Shown here in pieces: positions 1,584-16,927 of a stretch of DNA of 22,676 nucleotides; within the stretch, counting starts at the first letter, position 1, and each line of letters starts with the position of its first letter. Below the pieces are notes generated by a model. It did not search any database. It was given only the letters and a program-made list of their open reading frames with translations, and had not been told where the DNA came from. The stretch is from a virus, in IMG/VR virus record IMGVR_UViG_3300030060_008361, positions 1 to 22,676 of that record, one strand, 5' to 3'. A program made the position numbers and the translations under genes.

Positions 1584-2450
1584 ATGATCAAATTATCAAT
1601 AAAAAATGAAAAATTCACAAATTCTGGTCTCTTGGTACCAAAAAATACCTTAAATCCAAAGCTCTGGACAGATATGGAGATAGACCCGGAGGCTCAAGCA
1701 CAACTGAAGGCTATTGCGGAAGATGTAATTAAGAATATGGAAATAAATGCTGATGTGAAAGACGTCATCATCACAGGGTCCTCTGCATCTTATAATTGGC
1801 ACTCAGGGTCCGATATTGACCTTCATATCCTACTTGACTTTACAGAAATCGACAAAAACCTTGAATTAGTTAAAAGAATGCTGGATCAATCAAGAATAAA
1901 TTGGAATAAAACTCACGATATCTTTATTAGAGGTCATGAAGTCGAGTTATACTTTCAAGATATTAATGAACCACACGAATCGTTGGGTGTCTGGTCAATT
2001 TCAAAAGAGGAGTGGGTTGCAGAACCTGTAAAACTAAATCCTGAGCTTGATTTGCGAACTGCTGAGAAGAAAGCAGAACATATCGCCAAAGCTATCGACC
2101 ATGCAGTGGAGACTTTTGAGAGTGGAGATAACCTCGATGCTTATGAGTATGCTACTAAAATCAAAAAGAAGATAGCAAACTTGCGTTCTGCCGGGCTTTC
2201 CAGAGAAGGGGTATACTCTCCAGAGAATTTAGCATTTAAGATGCTTAGAAACTCAAACTACCTTGAAAAGCTTTCAAATATAAAAATTGACTCATATGAT
2301 AAAATGATGTCAATCCAAGAGATGTATATAAAAGACTATTTTAACTCAAACAAGAACAAAGAGCACATGGAGTTTGAAGGAAAATATGATCTAGAAGAAC
2401 TGCTCGACCCCGATGGTCCAGCGCCTTGGGGAGAAACTGAAGATGTATGA
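1584..2450 (+). CDS. Predicted nucleotidyltransferase (Pol beta fold)
   Basis: A 288-aa protein with the minimal nucleotidyltransferase signature: G-S-S-A-S-Y-N-W-H-S-G-S-D-I-D-L at residues 65-80, giving the G-S loop and the D-x-D metal-binding pair D77/D79. A third carboxylate is plausible in H-E-V-E-L-Y-F near residue 121. The block N-P-K-L-W near residue 24 and the W-N-K-T-H-D-I-F-I stretch match a group I recall from marine myoviruses. Residues ~155-260 are helical. The Pol-beta-like fold transfers a nucleotide to a protein, nucleic acid or small molecule; the substrate cannot be told. The start at 1584 follows a weak GAGG at 1573. It ends in ATGA overlap with the next gene region. Confidence 0.75.
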   Translation: MIKLSIKNEKFTNSGLLVPKNTLNPKLWTDMEIDPEAQAQLKAIAEDVIKNMEINADVKDVIITGSSASYNWHSGSDIDLHILLDFTEIDKNLELVKRMLDQSRINWNKTHDIFIRGHEVELYFQDINEPHESLGVWSISKEEWVAEPVKLNPELDLRTAEKKAEHIAKAIDHAVETFESGDNLDAYEYATKIKKKIANLRSAGLSREGVYSPENLAFKMLRNSNYLEKLSNIKIDSYDKMMSIQEMYIKDYFNSNKNKEHMEFEGKYDLEELLDPDGPAPWGETEDV

Positions 2451-2655: not shown

Positions 2656-3663
2656 ATGATTGCTGATATAGTTGTCGACCTTCAATACGGAGACTGCGGG
2701 AAGGGCAAGGTCGCACATGCCTTATGCCGTCAGAATAATTACACCCACGTTATTCGATATAATGGCGGCTGCAACGCAGGTCACACAATATACCATGAAG
2801 GCGTTAAATTTATAACGCATCATATTCCTTGTGGTGTGTTCTTTGGTATTAAGTCTATCATAGGTCCTGGTTGTGTTGTTCATGTTGACACTTTTCTAGA
2901 TGAAATAGAGAAACTTGAAGAAGCTGGTATACCGGCAAAAGAACTTGTAAAGGTTGCAACTAATGCCCACATCATTACAGACTTTCATAGAGCACAAGAC
3001 AGCAAAGACGAAGAAATTGGAACAACCAAAAGAGGTAACGGACCAGCATATCGAGACAAATATGGTCGAAAAGGTGTCAGAGCCATAGACGACCCAAGAT
3101 TGAGCAACTATCTAACAAATATTTATCTTGAACTTTATGAAAATGAAGAATTTGATGATATTGAAGTCCTTTTTGAAGGCGCCCAAGGTTTTGGCTTGGA
3201 CGTTGACTGGGGTGACTATCCCTATGTTACCTCTTCTCACTGTACAGTTGGTTCTGCTCTTCTTAACGGTGTTCCTCCAAGTGCAATAAGAAATACTTGG
3301 GGTGTTGCTAAGATATATGAAACATACGTTGGTGCAAAAGAATTCGAGGGCCCATATGATGAATTTGATGAAATTAGAGAACTTGGCCAGGAATATGGCG
3401 CCACAACTGGTAGACCAAGGCAAATAAATTGGCTTGACTTTGATTTATTAAAAATGGCGGCAAGGATTAACGGAATTAACAAACTTGTTGTTAACAAAAT
3501 GGATATTCTAGATGCCATAGGCAAATGGCATGCGTATAATGGGCCACACATACTTCAGTTTGATAGTCGAGAGGATATGGAATTTTGGATAGAAACAAAA
3601 TTAGAAATGGAAGTATCTGAGGATATAGAAACATTTTTTTCTGGAGACAAAGAACACATTTAA
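2656..3663 (+). CDS. Adenylosuccinate synthetase family (PurA/PurZ-like)
   Basis: A 335-aa member of the PurA family. PurA joins aspartate to IMP using GTP; its phage paralogue PurZ joins aspartate to dGMP to begin 2-aminoadenine (Z) synthesis. Visible marks: Q-Y-G-D-C-G-K-G-K at 10-18 (PurA has Q-W-G-D-E-G-K-G-K), G-G-C-N-A-G-H-T with the catalytic-acid His at 43, I-G-T-T-K-R-G-N-G-P-A-Y, F-E-G-A-Q-G, Y-P-Y-V-T-S-S, aspartate-loop G-A-T-T-G-R-P-R, and base-recognition N-K-M-D. The length matches archaeal PurA and phage PurZ (~340) rather than bacterial PurA (~430). The catalytic Asp13 is kept, while PurA Glu14 is Cys and Asp21 is His. Keeping Asp13 argues against canonical PurZ, so I leave the substrate open. 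AAAGGA precedes the ATG. Confidence 0.9.
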   Translation: MIADIVVDLQYGDCGKGKVAHALCRQNNYTHVIRYNGGCNAGHTIYHEGVKFITHHIPCGVFFGIKSIIGPGCVVHVDTFLDEIEKLEEAGIPAKELVKVATNAHIITDFHRAQDSKDEEIGTTKRGNGPAYRDKYGRKGVRAIDDPRLSNYLTNIYLELYENEEFDDIEVLFEGAQGFGLDVDWGDYPYVTSSHCTVGSALLNGVPPSAIRNTWGVAKIYETYVGAKEFEGPYDEFDEIRELGQEYGATTGRPRQINWLDFDLLKMAARINGINKLVVNKMDILDAIGKWHAYNGPHILQFDSREDMEFWIETKLEMEVSEDIETFFSGDKEHI

Positions 3664-5554: not shown

Positions 5555-6433
5555 ATGCAAAACTTACAACCTTTTATTGACAGTCTTCAAAAATTTGCCC
5601 AAAAAAGGCTTGATTTTAAAGAACCACCAAAGCTTTTTTTAAAACAAGACCAAGAAAACGCTAAAGATGTATTTGGTAAAACCGCATTTTATGACCCAAA
5701 TGAAAAATCAATAACCATTTTTACAACTGGTCGTCACCCAAAGGATATACTTCGCTCAATTGCTCATGAGTTAGTTCACCACTGCCAAAACTTGCGTGGT
5801 GATTTAAGTCCTGAAAAATGCGGATCAATGGGTACTGACTATGCTCAAAAGAATGACCATATGAGAGAAATGGAAAGAGAAGCTTATGAAAAAGGAAACT
5901 TATGCTTTCGCGACTGGGAAGATGGAATAAAGGTCGCGATGCAACAAGAAAATAACCAACTAAAGGAGAACAAGAAAATGGTTAAGATATCAAAAAAAGA
6001 ACTTAAGGGTCTCATTGGAAAGATTCTTGAGGCAAGATTAGAGAAAGAGCAAACAGAAGAATTAGAAGAGGGCAGCTGTGTGCCTGGGGGTAAGGCTCAC
6101 AAGCGCGACGTAAAGAAAATGGAAGAAAATGAAGAACTCGAAGAGGGCGAAAAAATGCCAGATGAAAATAATGATGGTATTCCTGACTATGCACAAGATG
6201 GAAAGGGCGCAAAGGATCTAGGCAAAGCCAAGGGTTCTGATCCTGACAACAAGGAAGAAAAGTCTGATAAAGATCTAAGTAACGTCCCTCCGCAGCTAAG
6301 AGATAGTGTTGCTAAAAAAATGAAAGAATCCAAAATTCAAACACCAGAGCAAGAAAAAGCACTTTACGAATCAAGATTTAATAAAAGAAATGAAGAAATC
6401 TTTGATAAACTAAAGAAACTTTGGACCAAGTAA
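5555..6433 (+). CDS. HExxH metallopeptidase fused to motif-bearing tail
   Basis: A 292-aa protein. Residues 1-130 form a small zinc peptidase-like domain: H-E-L-V-H-H at 71-76 gives two His ligands and the catalytic Glu, and R-E-M-E-R-E-A-Y near 104-111 supplies a third ligand. From 142 a new segment begins with M-V-K-I-S-K-K-E-L-K-G-L-I-G-K-I-L-E-A; I-L-E|A at 157-160 fits a T4-type prohead-protease site. Then follows an acidic linker, D-E-N-N-D-G-I-P-D near 203 (a dockerin/EF-hand-like calcium loop), and a lysine-rich C-terminus. A perfect Shine-Dalgarno sequence precedes the internal Met142. The peptidase substrate is unknown. A virion role is an inference from the neighbours. Confidence 0.75.
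   Translation: MQNLQPFIDSLQKFAQKRLDFKEPPKLFLKQDQENAKDVFGKTAFYDPNEKSITIFTTGRHPKDILRSIAHELVHHCQNLRGDLSPEKCGSMGTDYAQKNDHMREMEREAYEKGNLCFRDWEDGIKVAMQQENNQLKENKKMVKISKKELKGLIGKILEARLEKEQTEELEEGSCVPGGKAHKRDVKKMEENEELEEGEKMPDENNDGIPDYAQDGKGAKDLGKAKGSDPDNKEEKSDKDLSNVPPQLRDSVAKKMKESKIQTPEQEKALYESRFNKRNEEIFDKLKKLWTK
5962..5980 (+). promoter_or_regulatory. Internal Shine-Dalgarno and in-frame ATG
   Basis: AAAGGAG at 5962-5968 sits nine bases ahead of the in-frame ATG at 5978, better than most true starts in this window. It would yield a 151-aa protein made only of the motif, calcium-loop and lysine-rich tail, separate from the HExxH domain. Confidence 0.5.
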
Positions 6434-6446
6434 GGAATCTTAAATC

Positions 6447-9400
6447 GTGAAAAAAGAACTTCTCTTAGAAGGTGCTGTTGCTGGACATATGAACCATATC
6501 TATGATAATGGTGAAATGACTTTTGGCGAACTAAAGCAACTTCTACAAATGGCAGTGGATGGCAAGCTACGCGGAACAGAAAAAACTGACGGTCAGAACG
6601 TTTTTCTCTCCTTTGACGTTTCAACCCAAAAAGCTAGAGCTATCCGAAACAAAGGCCACATAAAAGCAGGTGGGCTTACTGTTGAGGAGTTTGATGATTT
6701 TTTTTCCGCACACCCAAACCAAGCTTTAAGGTATAGTTTTGTTGAAGCATTAGAAGCATTCGAAGATATAATAAAACAACTAGACAAAGATACTCAATTT
6801 AAAATTTTTGGAAACAAAAAAGATAATATCTACTTTAATACAGAGGTAATGAATCCTGGAGTACCTGATGCTGTAGGTGATGACCCAAGAGGTGCCGGCA
6901 CCACAAATGTAATCCCTTATGATAAGAAAACCTTGCTGGTTCATGAAGTTGGGCATGGTATGTTCGACCCAAAGACAGCATTACCGTATGATGACCCCGA
7001 GTCAAAGAAAAGAGTAGCAAATGCTTATTCTGTTTTAGAGAATGCCCTAATAGGGAAATCTACCGAAGACCCCAGTGTATTTTCTGTTGAAACTCATCCG
7101 CGCAGAAAATTAGAAAAAGCTGGTATGAAAAGAGCTAGCAAAGTGCTTCCAGATGCCATCACTGCAATTGATAATATCGTTGAAGATTTTGGACTAAATG
7201 ATGCATCGACAATTCAAGATATGGTTATGGTGCAAATAAAACCTATAATTGATAGCTTTGGCCTAACAGAGGATAGAAATAAAGAATTTATTTTAAGATT
7301 AATGGGACTTTGCAAGAGCATTGATGACCCCAATAAATTAATTCCTTGTGGCACAAAAGACCCAACAACTGGAAAAAGTCTTCATTATTCACGAATAAAT
7401 ATCAGAGACTTGACCTCTGGGGTGCCCCAAGAGCTAACAGACAGAATAAGACAATTTGACAGCGAATTTAAATATCAAAACTACACAGCTGCTTTAAGCA
7501 AATCTTTATATGAGTTTACAAACGCAATATTACAAGACTTTGATTCCTCTTTTATCGGAGATAACCAAAAAGCCATAAAAGAACTTCAAGATGAATTAAA
7601 GCAATCTATTCAGAAAATACAAGATTCTTCAAATGAAGCCGCACAAGAAGACTTAAAAAAACAACTAGAAAAATTACAAGATGTAAAAAATGTTAATACT
7701 CCTTCAGAGGGGTTTGTTTTCAATTTTAATGGAGTCACTTACAAGTTTACTGGTTGGTTTGCTCCAAGCAACCAAATACTGGGTACAGAGCGTTATGGAC
7801 GCTTTGGGCCTATAGAGCCTAAAGAAACCGAAGAAACGGACTTAGAGGGCAAAACTGGGCCTCTTACGATAGCTGTAGTGCCCGGCGCATTCAAGCCTCC
7901 TCATAAAGGTCACCTCTCTATGGTTGAATCTTTAGCTCAAAACGCAGACAAGGTGATAGTGATAGTATCAACACCACTGAAAGGCGGAAGAACGTTGCCA
8001 TCTGGAAAGATTATTGATTCAGACCATGCCGTACAAATTTGGAACGCTTATCTTGATAACTCTCCTGCGGGAAGTAAAACTACTGTTATCAAGTCACCCT
8101 CTGCTTCTCCGGTAGGGGTAACTTATGATTTTGTTATGAAAGAGCCAGACCCAACTAATTTATTGATTGCTCCACCAGACGCAACTATTCTTTTGGGTTG
8201 TGGTGACAAAGAAGACGATAAAACTAGATTTCAAACGATTGCTTCTAAAGCAAGAGAGGATTTAAAAATACAGGTTCAAGTTTGCGACTTGACAGCAAAA
8301 CATTCAAATGAATATTTACAAATGCTGAAAGAGCATCCTGCTATCTTGGAAGGTTTGCCATCTAACAAGAAGAGCACGGTTTCTGTTGATGACTTACATG
8401 CTTCGGACATGAGGTACATGATTGATGCTGCCGCAAGAGAGTCAATAGGGCTAACCCTGCTTCAGGACTTTGTACCAACAGCAGAAGATGCACTAGCAGT
8501 GCTTGGAATATTAGGATTAAACCCCGCTGATGGTAATGAGCCCGAAGAAGACCAGGTAGAGGAGCCAGAGCTTGATGCTGATGGCCTGCGTGAGATGATT
8601 GAAAAAAGTTTAGAAAACATGCTACAAGAAGATTTTAGAGCACAAAAAGCTCCAAAAGCTAGTCCTGATAGTGGTAAGTTTCAAAATTCTATGAAGTCTA
8701 GACTATCGAAGGCGCATGCAACCTATTTAGATATGGGTCGCAAAGATTTAACAAAACATGGTGGAGGTTTTCACCTTGATAGACCCAAGGATATTTCGAA
8801 TGCTTTTCTAGCGGAAGAGCAAGAAGAAATAGAAGAAATCAGCACAGCGGTTGGCCTCCAGGGCGCACCAGCTGTAAAAAAAGAGGATGAAGAATTGAAA
8901 GAACAAGAACAGCAATTAAGAAAAACTATTAGAATAGGCCTTAGAGAGTTTTTTGATAACAAACAAAAAGAACAAGAAAACCTTATTGAATATGTCATAC
9001 AAGAGCATAATCTTAGGCTGAACTTAAGAACAATGATACTCTCGGAGGCAGCTAGTGAAGATCCAACTGTTGATGTGGCTGATAGTACTGGCATTAATAC
9101 CTTGAAAGATCTTCTTAAAAACTCCAATGTTCTTTCTACTCTTAGAAATGTCTACAAGACTCTCACAACTGATGAAGACCAAAAACTTTCATTTCGAGCA
9201 CACATCGTAAAATGGACACAAGACACTCTAGCACCAGTTAGATTGAACGATATGAAACCAGAAGGAGAAGAGGCGCTTTCCGAAGCAGTTGGTATTGATG
9301 TTGCTGGTATTGATACCGATCCCGCGGATATTAATAAGTTTATTGATGCACAAGATGGCTCAGAAAAAGAAAAACCAGAAGAGCCGCAAGAAGAAGAGGT

Positions 9401-9644
9401 AATGACACCCATATCCGGCGCTGATACTACTGGTCGCAACAAGGCTGAAAGAGTTTACCCTGTGATCGAAAAGTCAATCGTTGATTATTACGGAGAGCTT
9501 GACAATCCAGAAGACCAAGAAATGTTCTATGACTATCTAATTGCCAACCTTAAGCTTTACTTTGATAAATGGGATGGTGAAATGTCTAAAGAAATTGAAG
9601 AGCCAACCAATGATGAGTATGAACAGGCTAAACAAGCTGTCTAA
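6447..9644 (+). CDS. RNA-ligase-like + NMNAT-like fusion, phage polyprotein
   Basis: A 1065-aa protein from a GTG start with AGGAA ten bases upstream. Residues ~1-445 resemble covalent nucleotidyltransferases (RNA ligase/capping type): E-K-T-D-G at 45-49 fits motif I K-x-D-G with K46 as the adenylylated Lys, R-N-K-G at 67, F-N-T-E-V-M at 130-135 fits motif III, S-E-G-F-V-F at 420-425 fits motif IV, and Y-K-F at 432-434 fits motif V. Residues ~472-660 are an HxGH adenylyltransferase: V-P-G-A-F-K-P-P-H-K-G-H ending at 489, and S-D-M-R at 653-656, where NMNAT-type enzymes keep S-x-x-I-R. The C-terminal ~400 residues are helical and acidic with L-S-E|A at 865 and 944, and a G-R-N-K-A-E-R-V-Y-P-V-I-E-K block that I recall from marine phages. 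L-L-E|G at 6-9 is a further possible cleavage site. Neither enzyme activity is proven. Confidence 0.75.
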   Translation: MKKELLLEGAVAGHMNHIYDNGEMTFGELKQLLQMAVDGKLRGTEKTDGQNVFLSFDVSTQKARAIRNKGHIKAGGLTVEEFDDFFSAHPNQALRYSFVEALEAFEDIIKQLDKDTQFKIFGNKKDNIYFNTEVMNPGVPDAVGDDPRGAGTTNVIPYDKKTLLVHEVGHGMFDPKTALPYDDPESKKRVANAYSVLENALIGKSTEDPSVFSVETHPRRKLEKAGMKRASKVLPDAITAIDNIVEDFGLNDASTIQDMVMVQIKPIIDSFGLTEDRNKEFILRLMGLCKSIDDPNKLIPCGTKDPTTGKSLHYSRINIRDLTSGVPQELTDRIRQFDSEFKYQNYTAALSKSLYEFTNAILQDFDSSFIGDNQKAIKELQDELKQSIQKIQDSSNEAAQEDLKKQLEKLQDVKNVNTPSEGFVFNFNGVTYKFTGWFAPSNQILGTERYGRFGPIEPKETEETDLEGKTGPLTIAVVPGAFKPPHKGHLSMVESLAQNADKVIVIVSTPLKGGRTLPSGKIIDSDHAVQIWNAYLDNSPAGSKTTVIKSPSASPVGVTYDFVMKEPDPTNLLIAPPDATILLGCGDKEDDKTRFQTIASKAREDLKIQVQVCDLTAKHSNEYLQMLKEHPAILEGLPSNKKSTVSVDDLHASDMRYMIDAAARESIGLTLLQDFVPTAEDALAVLGILGLNPADGNEPEEDQVEEPELDADGLREMIEKSLENMLQEDFRAQKAPKASPDSGKFQNSMKSRLSKAHATYLDMGRKDLTKHGGGFHLDRPKDISNAFLAEEQEEIEEISTAVGLQGAPAVKKEDEELKEQEQQLRKTIRIGLREFFDNKQKEQENLIEYVIQEHNLRLNLRTMILSEAASEDPTVDVADSTGINTLKDLLKNSNVLSTLRNVYKTLTTDEDQKLSFRAHIVKWTQDTLAPVRLNDMKPEGEEALSEAVGIDVAGIDTDPADINKFIDAQDGSEKEKPEEPQEEEVMTPISGADTTGRNKAERVYPVIEKSIVDYYGELDNPEDQEMFYDYLIANLKLYFDKWDGEMSKEIEEPTNDEYEQAKQAV

Positions 9645-9681: not shown

Positions 9682-9716
9682 AGTTGAGGTGGTTGGGTTC
9701 GGCAGAAAAGGACAGC

Positions 9717-10079
9717 ATGTTATTCGATAACACATTTAGAGGTTCTAAATACAAATCAAAAAATGAAAATTTTGATTATAAAAAGAAACTTCTAGAAGAA
9801 AAAAAGATAAATAAAGATTTTTTAAATAGAATAAAGTTAGTAACCCTTGAAGAGTTAGTGTATCTTAAACTAGACTCTATAACTTCAAGTCTTAATGGTA
9901 AGTTGTTGGGCTTTCCCATCATGAAGATGTTGCCTGATATTTGTAAAGAAGCTTTTGTTCTTTTCGCTCTTTCTGTAACAAAAAATCAAAAAGATGCTTG
10001 TGCTATGCTAAACACTGATAAGGTTGGCCTTATAAATTATATGAAGCGATATAAAATTAATGTTGGAGATAAAAAATGA
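9717..10079 (+). CDS. Fis-type helix-turn-helix protein, probable
   Basis: A 120-aa basic protein. I choose ATG 9717 because AAGGA lies just before it; a TTG start at 9684 would add 11 residues without a good ribosome site. The N-terminal half is highly charged (K-Y-K-S-K-N-E-N, K-K-K-L-L-E-E-K-K). The C-terminal ~50 residues (K-E-A-F-V-L-F-A-L-S-V-T-K-N-Q-K-D-A-C-A-M-L, then V-G-L-I-N-Y-M-K-R-Y) have the spacing of a Fis/NtrC-type helix-turn-helix, where the last helix contacts DNA. A regulator of phage transcription, or a DNA-organising protein, would fit. The stop overlaps the cupin start as ATGA. Confidence 0.6.
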   Translation: MLFDNTFRGSKYKSKNENFDYKKKLLEEKKINKDFLNRIKLVTLEELVYLKLDSITSSLNGKLLGFPIMKMLPDICKEAFVLFALSVTKNQKDACAMLNTDKVGLINYMKRYKINVGDKK

Positions 10080-11718: not shown

Positions 11719-12029
<311 letters not shown>

Positions 12030-16225: not shown

Positions 16226-16831
16226 ATGATTCGCATTATAGGTAAAATACCACCAAAAGTTACTATTGCTTGTTCCGGCGGCATCGACTCTATGGTTTTC
16301 ACTAATTTCCTCTTACAAGGAAAAAGAGAAGTAGAGTTAGCTTATTTTAATCATGATACCAAACATGGCCAAGACGCAGAAGAATTTGTAAAAGAATATG
16401 CGGAAAAGAATAATCTAAAACTGAATATCGGAAGAGTAAAGGGCACAAAGGGTAAACGCTCTGTAGAAGAATTCTGGCGTGATGAGCGATACGCTTTTTT
16501 TGACACTCTTGAGAGTGATTATATCATAACCTGCCATCATTTAGGTGATTGTGTCGAAACTTGGATTATGTCAAGTTTACATGGAACAGGAAAAGTGATA
16601 CCATTTAGGAGAGCATCAAATATCTACAGGCCCTTTTTGATGACAGAAAAAAAGAGCATAAAAAGATATGCTGAAAAGCACCAAGTATCTTGGATAGAAG
16701 ATCCATCCAACTCAAGCATTCACTATATGCGAAATTATGTTAGAAAAAATATAGTACCGCACGCCTTGAAGGTCAATCCAGGATTAAGAAAAGTTCTTCG
16801 TAAAAAAATGCTTGAACTTTATGTAAAATAA
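16226..16831 (+). CDS. tilS: tRNA(Ile)-lysidine synthetase
   Basis: A 201-aa PP-loop ATPase. S-G-G-I-D-S-M at 17-23 is the ATP-pyrophosphatase loop, Y-F-N-H-D near 40 is the second strand, H-H-L-G-D-C-V-E-T at 104-112 matches the H-H-x-D-D-Q-x-E-T motif with changes, and E-D-P-S-N plus M-R-N-Y-V-R-x-x-I-V-P at 158-178 is the TilS-specific signature. TilS puts lysine on C34 of tRNA-Ile(CAU), switching it from AUG/Met to AUA/Ile reading. The protein is a catalytic core only; bacterial TilS often has extra C-terminal domains. A CAU tRNA lies 19 bases downstream. The promoter next to its ATG suggests independent expression. Confidence 0.85.
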   Translation: MIRIIGKIPPKVTIACSGGIDSMVFTNFLLQGKREVELAYFNHDTKHGQDAEEFVKEYAEKNNLKLNIGRVKGTKGKRSVEEFWRDERYAFFDTLESDYIITCHHLGDCVETWIMSSLHGTGKVIPFRRASNIYRPFLMTEKKSIKRYAEKHQVSWIEDPSNSSIHYMRNYVRKNIVPHALKVNPGLRKVLRKKMLELYVK

Positions 16832-16850
16832 TAGTATATTAGTTTTTATC

Positions 16851-16927
16851 GGACCTCTAGCTCAATCGGTTAGAGCATCCGGCTCATAACCGGCAGGTTC
16901 GCGGTTCAAGTCCGCGGAGGTCCACCA
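16851..16927 (+). tRNA. tRNA with CAU anticodon, likely Ile2 (AUA)
   Basis: A complete 77-base tRNA with encoded CCA. The acceptor GGACCUC pairs with GAGGUCC, discriminator A. The anticodon loop CUCAUAA places CAU at 16885-16887; the T arm is CGCGG-UUCAAGU-CCGCG. Sequence alone gives Met or Ile2. C4-G69 and C5-G68, the pairs reported to be read by TilS, are present, and a tilS gene is directly upstream, so I favour tRNA-Ile2 whose C34 becomes lysidine. Confidence 0.93.

Follow-up and report, generated by a model that had tools for sequence, protein, structure and literature searches.

The virus record IMGVR_UViG_3300030060_008361 of IMG/VR has 97,256 bases, and the window considered here is the whole stretch analysed, bases 1-22,676 of that record. 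On its plus strand, an open reading frame (ORF) at 6447-9644, with a GTG start, encodes a fusion protein of 1065 amino acids (aa) in which a ligase-like domain is followed by a HIGH-type adenylyl/cytidylyltransferase domain, a conserved linker block and a C-terminal module (Table 1), a layout shared by relatives L005 to L009 (L005 missing its start). All the motifs on which the original prediction was built are present in the translation in the order given: K46-T-D-G49, N131-T-E133-V-M, S420-E421-G-F-V-F425 and Y432-K433-F in the first domain, and G480-A-F-K-P-P-H486-K-G-H489 and S653-D-M-R656 in the second. The label "polyprotein", which that prediction attached to the fusion protein, would be a matter of interpretation.

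A first search of IMG/VR with the ligase-like domain led to 6 loci, and an alignment query detected at least 589 window-type stretches in the same database, of which the best 80 were kept; in addition, 3 records matched when a phage record collection was queried with the window sequence. The family set used below contains 89 proteins, that is, the window and 88 loci (L004 was dropped, being the window's own record again), and conservation was counted over 68 aligned ligase-like domains, including that of the window, and 40 aligned HIGH domains. Taking into account the near-complete conservation in both alignments, the sequence motifs are not due to chance.

Table 1. Coordinates, in the window, of the fusion gene, its parts and the neighbouring genes discussed in the text.
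Feature	Residues	Position	Strand	Remarks
Whole fusion gene		6447..9644	+	ligase-like domain, HIGH adenylyltransferase, linker, C-terminal module
Leader, ending L-L-E↓G	1-8	6447..6470	+	predicted T4 gp21-type prohead protease cut site
Ligase-superfamily nucleotidyltransferase domain	1-455	6447..7811	+	motifs, model and fold matches; lysine-adenylate on K46 predicted
HIGH-type adenylyl/cytidylyltransferase domain (GAFKPPHKGH ... HASDMR)	472-693	7860..8525	+	profiles, model and fold matches
Conserved linker block	724-798	8616..8840	+	LAE at 788-790, possible second cut site
C-terminal module	864-1052	9036..9602	+	possible cut L865-S-E867↓A868 at its start
HExxH protein gene (zincin-like by eye), directly upstream of the fusion gene		5555..6433	+	homologues in at least 40 of 88 loci (one in the same ORF)
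Pol-beta-type nucleotidyltransferase gene		1584..2450	+	homologue of S-CREM2 ORF156
Small conserved gene downstream (131 aa)		9684..10079	+	homologues in at least 44 of 88 loci

Motifs and model together indicate that residues 1-455 are almost certainly a ligase-superfamily enzyme. In ATP-dependent ligases, the motif scheme runs from KxDG through a downstream Arg, the motif III acid and EGhV to the motif V lysine. The KxDG nucleophile motif (K46, D48, G49) is invariant in the 68 ligase-like domains, as are E45, N51, R67, E421, G422, F425, Y432, K433, T435, G436, F438, N442 and Q443, while position 133 holds E in 67 and D in one; the motif III acid, the EGhh of motif IV and the motif V lysine thus appear in order. 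The AlphaFold model of the domain is confident (predicted local distance difference test, pLDDT, 94.4; predicted template modelling score, pTM, 0.90), its strands 42-46, 128-135, 422-427 and 430-434 hold or adjoin the ligase motifs, and motifs III and IV are separated by nearly 290 residues that form a largely helical insert.

When this model was compared with solved structures by VIA-align, the top row was TbREL1 (Z 8.2, root-mean-square deviation (rmsd) 4.5, 209 residues aligned), followed by a Naegleria RNA ligase and then by T4 Rnl1 (Z 7.8) and Rnl2 (Z 7.7). The 50 rows shown (Z 5.3-8.2, rmsd 4.3-5.6) support a nucleotidyltransferase core fold: 49 are titled ligases or capping enzymes, the other being 9cq3_F, a chain of an end-joining complex. 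Foldseek against the PDB likewise returned ligases or capping-complex chains in its first 13 rows. Several points weigh on the other side: motif V keeps just one lysine, the best Foldseek ligase match reaches an E value of just 0.036 (AsfvLIG) and none falls below 0.001, and a Z of about 8 counts as middling according to VIA-align's own note. Such a Z, taken together with the conserved catalytic set, makes the ligase fold convincing. Thus, the ligase-like domain of the original prediction is borne out at the superfamily level, the nearest solved folds being RNA and DNA ligases and capping enzymes.

Family libraries add little to this assignment. Searches of Pfam, PHROGs and PDB sequences gave the domain no name beyond one weak match to Pfam RNA_ligase (PF09414) in one of 10 individual ligase-like domains (E 0.067), and DUF6267 (PF19782), a family to which we return below, is absent from the Pfam matches of the window protein and of those 10 domains. 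At the level of whole records, RNA_ligase was matched in 2 of 30 (E 8.5e-5 and 4.6e-4; 18.6 and 16.2 bits, below the cut-off of 27), in both cases, by coordinate reckoning, at the motif I end of the L056 and L060 fusion genes. A FUSC-like Pfam match (E 0.001, below cut-off) lies inside the helical insert and was set aside. As judged from sequence and model, the domain is a new family within the ligase-superfamily nucleotidyltransferases.

As regards its role, RNA repair is our leading guess, put forward tentatively. It has to be weighed against a function on DNA (nicks in the incoming genome), or the transfer of nucleotides to protein or cap, since DNA ligases and capping enzymes are found among the fold matches and AsfvLIG heads the Foldseek rows. 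However, RNA ligases, including T4 Rnl1 and Rnl2, fill the first six VIA-align rows, the weak Pfam matches include no ligase model other than RNA_ligase, and this model appears below cut-off in the 2 records mentioned, DNA ligase models not having been run there; all three are weak discriminators. On balance, an action on DNA, protein or cap appears distinctly unlikely.

The second domain, residues 472-693, belongs to the HIGH-type adenylyl/cytidylyltransferases, a fold shown by model comparison. The window domain exceeds the cut-offs of TIGR00125 (36.4 bits, cut-off 27.7) and Pfam CTP_transf_like (PF01467; 23.7 bits, cut-off 21), and both the HxGH motif and the SDMR arginine are conserved: G480, P484 and H489 are invariant in the 40 HIGH domains, with H486 in 37 (T in 3), K588 in 39, R594 in 38 and R656 in 36. 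The model of this domain has a pLDDT of 94.0.

In the original prediction, this part resembles nicotinamide mononucleotide adenylyltransferase (NMNAT) and may restore nicotinamide adenine dinucleotide (NAD) after an NAD-depleting defence, with the ligase repairing RNA alongside. The HIGH superfamily assignment stands, and the NMNAT identity is not established, given that the NMNAT cut-offs fail and the structural rankings disagree. In favour of NMNAT, M. jannaschii NMNAT (1f9a) comes first when the HIGH profile is searched against PDB sequences (3.7e-10), with a phosphopantetheine adenylyltransferase (PPAT) second (3e-9), and Foldseek places M. thermoautotrophicum NMNAT (1.6e-5) ahead of NadR (2.7e-5) and PPAT (2.8e-5), all within a factor of two. 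Relatives L063 and L077, with GRFQPFH.GH or similar, rank NMNAT models first, and the histidine, rather than T, that 37 of the 40 domains carry at the start of HxGH suits NMNAT better than PPAT. Moreover, NMNAT-like proteins are reported, in the part of PMC9602691 consulted, from cyanophage virions.

Against these observations, VIA-align puts PPAT 1.3 Z ahead (PPAT 14.7, NadM 13.4, NadD 13.3), and the CoaD/PPAT model (TIGR01510) outscores every NMNAT model on the window domain, itself failing its cut-off (26.9 vs 103.3), as do all the NMNAT equivalog models (NadM, NadD and NadR), with 12-23 bits for cut-offs of 112-449. According to the sections of a survey consulted, every phage with NadM also has NadV (PMC9503650), but this NAD-salvage partner (PF04095) was sought in vain in 40 records, of which 32 belong to the family, 7 are isolate genomes with "complete" in their titles and one is the window's own, a partial record. 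This search covered virus records that are partial or of unknown completeness, its isolate scan gave 0 of 10 (7 of them new), and its controls rang in 6 of 14. Taken as a whole, NAD restoration appears unlikely as the role of the protein, and NMN itself is a rather doubtful substrate of the HIGH domain.

The joining of the two domains is a trait of this large family of marine phages, the ligase plus HIGH fusion being found in 78 of the 89 proteins in both domain orders. By pattern, the HIGH motif follows the ligase in 57 proteins and precedes it in 20, and the variant in L013 was recognised by eye; the other 11 comprise 4 proteins cut by contig ends and 7 without a HIGH motif. The occurrence of both orders points to a working partnership of the two activities. 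Seven internal boundaries read L-L-M↓G-G (the arrow marks a predicted cut or a boundary throughout), as if the start codon of a formerly separate MGG gene had been retained.

Beyond the HIGH domain, the LAE of the linker is invariant (6 of 6 aligned). The region following it, described originally as a long acidic tail, fits that description only in part: residues from about 864 to 1052 form a conserved module that other phages carry as a separate gene. Thus, in 26 of 89 loci it is a gene of 244-310 aa close downstream of the ligase gene, and in 21 it lies in the same ORF (matches were listed up to E 1, the weakest at 1.6e-7). In the loci read, the module is often preceded by LRxxIRxLI-x-E-like helices, the window string being L-S-E↓A, and no family library scanned gave it a name.

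Some relatives show further arrangements. In L036:137-4831, a 1564-aa relative, DUF4116 repeats (best 1244-1283) come between the ligase-like domain and the HIGH motif, which follows them closely at 1329. L002:6480-9227 has the order ParB-like N-terminal domain, HIGH, ligase, and an ORF judged by eye to be terminase-like lies some 3.3 kb downstream of its gene. L003:7971-9236 consists of the ligase-like domain alone behind a leader in the style of T4 internal proteins, MKFLKSYEEFLNE, and in the gene after it a HIGH-like motif can be seen by eye close to the C-terminal end of the product.

A connection with phage heads is suggested by the sequence in front of the ligase-like domain. The T4 protease gp21 cleaves after L/I-X-E, as stated in the part of PMC9026906 consulted. 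The L-L-E↓G leader singled out in the original prediction exists and is conserved across the family: [LIVMF]-x-E stands directly before the Gly-Gly/Ala of the ligase in 29 of 31 short leaders and at 21 of 29 internal boundaries (50 of the 60 scorable; 2 of the 89 proteins were unscorable). The background in the same proteins is 2 of 757 before other GG/GA and 1656 of 72,086 before any residue, site counts that come from related sequences and hence do not represent independent events. In addition, Peptidase_S77 was detected in 16 of 26 related records, 15 of them above cut-off, and gp23 in 13 of 16; in each of the 11 gp23 N-termini read, the first 60 residues contain more than one [LIVM]xE site, indeed several.

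Cyanophages contribute virion data on related HIGH enzymes. The 286-aa HIGH protein ORF154 of S-CREM2 is in the virion list obtained by mass spectrometry, with 3 unique peptides, and its neighbours ORF155 and ORF156 are also on that list (ORF156 in Table 3), as far as the sections of PMC10665884 consulted go; in those of PMC9602691, ORF91 of S-SCSM1 is reported in virions and S-CBWM1 is cited likewise. S-CREM2 ORF156 is homologous to the Pol-beta-type ORF of the window (29% over 245 aa, E 5e-33). The HIGH proteins of S-CREM2, S-SCSM1 and S-SM1 start with M-K-x-F-x-x-F-L-x-E↓A, which we take to resemble the leaders of T4 internal proteins.

Several observations count against cleavage and carriage in the virion. 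As many as 27 of the 89 proteins begin directly at M-G-G, so that the leader is dispensable, although these proteins would bare the same Gly-Gly once the methionine is removed. No S77 was found in 10 of the 26 related records, nor in the window's own 97-kb partial record, which stops inside a portal-like gene (by eye), so head genes are probably missing from it. The virion papers, in the parts consulted (PMC10665884, PMC9602691), allow for carry-over after caesium chloride purification, and the DUF6267 protein of S-CREM2 (58914-59762), whose gene is far from the HIGH gene of this phage, is absent from the virion list as given in the sections consulted of PMC10665884.

On these grounds, the protein could be regarded as an ordinary cytoplasmic enzyme, neither cleaved nor packaged, with L-x-E-G-G simply representing the conserved start of the ligase fold; the unstructured state of residues 1-8 in the model and the near invariance of G9 in the alignment would agree with this. 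However, the site is kept in 21 of the 29 proteins that have the ligase inside the chain, far above background, and the cyanophage HIGH proteins have leaders of their own, so that a purely cytoplasmic enzyme seems improbable to us. Head processing or packaging of the fusion protein is rather probable, and its delivery in the virion is likely. The proposal of virion carriage is strengthened by the conserved [LI]xE↓G site, the S77 genes of 16 of 26 relatives, the capsid-protein propeptides of the same style and the related HIGH enzymes in virions, and has against it the missing S77 match in the window's partial record and the S-CREM2 list.

In several cyanophages, the gene beside the HIGH gene is T4-GC 71, of unknown function, which corresponds to DUF6267/phrog_455 (17 of 17 scanned). 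Its motif order is K-x-D-G (KWDGAP-like), Q-x-D (QGDL-like), EG(F/Y)V, K-(L/I)-V and F-x3-N. Among 15 records, DUF6267 and the HIGH gene are fused in 1 (S-PM2) and adjacent in 7 (counting S-CAM8, although its neighbour is described only as similar to gp184); a single gene lies between them in 1 record, they are at most 4 kb apart in another, and in the remaining 5 they do not lie close together. DUF6267 is matched in 462 phage records and at least 600 IMG/VR stretches, and HIGH matches to S-CREM2 ORF154 occur in 528 records. In records carrying the window-type domain, DUF6267 was found in 0 of 30, the same search ringing in 5 of 7 phage records.

BLAST gave no similarity between DUF6267 and the ligase-like domain of the window, and a profile-profile proof of homology failed, given that its score of 24.0 (P 0.037) was matched by 2 of 60 column-shuffled controls (shuffled median 15.1; reversed profile 14.4; two unrelated profiles 14.5 and 15.2). 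A loose full-length alignment brings K-x-D-G and E-G-x-V of both into register. In BFVD, the model of the ligase-like domain finds an S-PM2 entry of 591 aa (E 2.3e-3, probability 0.99, template modelling score 0.29-0.36, rmsd 13.5), assigned to S-PM2d138 by phage, length and name rather than by sequence. Homology is suggested, not proven, by the motif order, the gene partnership and this one loose fold match, and the DUF6267 and HIGH pair is analogous to the fusion of the window.

Taking all this together, the best explanation, which we hold with some reserve, is a two-enzyme phage protein, trimmed in the head and injected, that would combine an ATP-using, RNA-repairing ligase with a HIGH adenylyltransferase. 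The fusion protein would be made late and enter the prohead along with the core, where a gp21-like phage protease would trim it after L-x-E, exposing a Gly-Gly or Gly-Ala end, and perhaps also release the C-terminal module. The trimmed protein would then be injected together with the phage DNA. Once in the host, the ligase domain would load adenosine monophosphate (AMP) onto K46 and would most probably rejoin broken RNA, such as tRNA cleaved by the nucleases of a host defence. The HIGH domain would move AMP from ATP onto a phosphate acceptor, candidates being NMN, a phosphate of nucleotide or pantetheine-like type and the end of an RNA.

Each part of this system has known counterparts. With T4 RNA ligases 1 and 2 and trypanosome REL1, the ligase-like domain shares the motif order and the core fold (Z 7.7-8.2, best chains), but identity in the VIA-align rows is only 9-17%, the window domain is below the Pfam RNA_ligase cut-off, and it has the helical insert of about 290 residues, the single motif V lysine and the HIGH fusion. 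The cyanophage arrangement of T4-GC 71 (DUF6267) by T4-GC 190, a "cytitidyltransferase", has a similar motif order and a HIGH partner beside or fused to it in 8 of 15 records; it differs in the missing BLAST similarity, a profile-profile score within the shuffled range and the absence of DUF6267 from the window-type records. Phage NadM (NMNAT-Nudix) and NadR (NMNAT-kinase), known from large phages, are also HIGH enzymes fused to a second enzyme, according to the parts of PMC9503650 and PMC7824862 consulted; in the window, however, the partner is ligase-like rather than a Nudix or kinase, no NadV was found and the NMNAT cut-offs are unmet.

Like the T4 internal head proteins (IPI-IPIII, Alt), the family has short N-terminal leaders ending in L/I-x-E, in phages many of which have S77 and gp23, whereas its leaders measure 5-27 residues, often 7-9, and its packaging and cleavage are predictions. 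The polyvalent proteins of phages similarly hold several enzymatic domains per chain, with HExxH and Pol-beta neighbours or fusions; in the sections of PMC5512222 consulted, by contrast, ATP-grasp RNA ligases are named as not associated with their 2H domains, and HIGH enzymes go unmentioned. No description of a ligase-HIGH fusion, and none naming DUF6267, was found in the portions consulted of open-access papers from one library.

The surroundings of the fusion gene are also partly conserved, the neighbour counts (E up to 1e-4, limited flanks) being lower bounds. The HExxH protein encoded directly upstream is 43% identical over 122 aa to part of the HIGH-domain protein of Flavobacterium phage immuto, a 907-aa protein in which a HIGH domain is joined to one Pol-beta-like and two HExxH parts, these three recognised by eye. 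In this same phage, the 145-aa QQO91850.1 (L090:5271-5708) is annotated as "NAD synthetase"; it looks like a GIY-YIG-type N-terminal domain, shows by eye no sign of an NAD synthase, and was not used. The name RlaP for the Pol-beta-type gene of the window was dropped, because Pfam (E up to 0.05) listed other Pol-beta models and not RlaP. A PhoH-like gene (name by eye) lies near the fusion gene in at least 32 of 88 loci, and homologues of the adenylosuccinate synthetase-like gene (by eye) at 2656-3663 (+) of the window, a candidate for either PurA or the PurZ known from base-Z phages, are found upstream of it in at least 15 of 88.

Elsewhere in the window, a transfer-messenger RNA gene with the tag ANDDVENFEDFALAA, a phage-borne ribosome-rescue RNA, is located at 11719-12029 (+), 2 kb downstream of the fusion gene. 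At 16226-16927 (+), directly before a CAT-anticodon tRNA called Met, lies the gene of a PP-loop ATPase (PF01171, E 9.8e-37), which may be TilS, the lysidine synthase, acting for what would be a phage tRNA-Ile2. Further along the record, ORFs of giant size (4693 and 4501 aa) stand at positions 43849-57930 and 62135-75640, in the vicinity of genes that look by eye tail/baseplate-like, and a run of sugar genes at record positions 22634-39596 (NeuB-like, nucleotidyl-sugar and glycosyltransferase-like, by eye) suggests surface-glycan modification.

A wider proposal, which at present we consider doubtful, is that the heads of T4-like marine phages, including hundreds of sequenced cyanomyoviruses, contain an adenylyl-transfer kit, in which a HIGH adenylyltransferase and a Pol-beta nucleotidyltransferase accompany a ligase-type enzyme (of the window or the DUF6267 type); cut by the prohead protease and injected, it would repair immune damage to RNA and nucleotides before phage gene expression, and DUF6267 would be its unrecognised ligase. 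The gene pairs and the two domain orders argue that both activities act together, and a testable enzyme class becomes available for widespread unannotated genes, represented by at least 589 window-type IMG/VR stretches and, for DUF6267, by 462 phage records and at least 600 stretches. The unexplained "NMNAT/cytidylyltransferase" of cyanophage virions gains a ligase-like partner, and a so-called metabolic gene is recast as a possible injected counter-defence.

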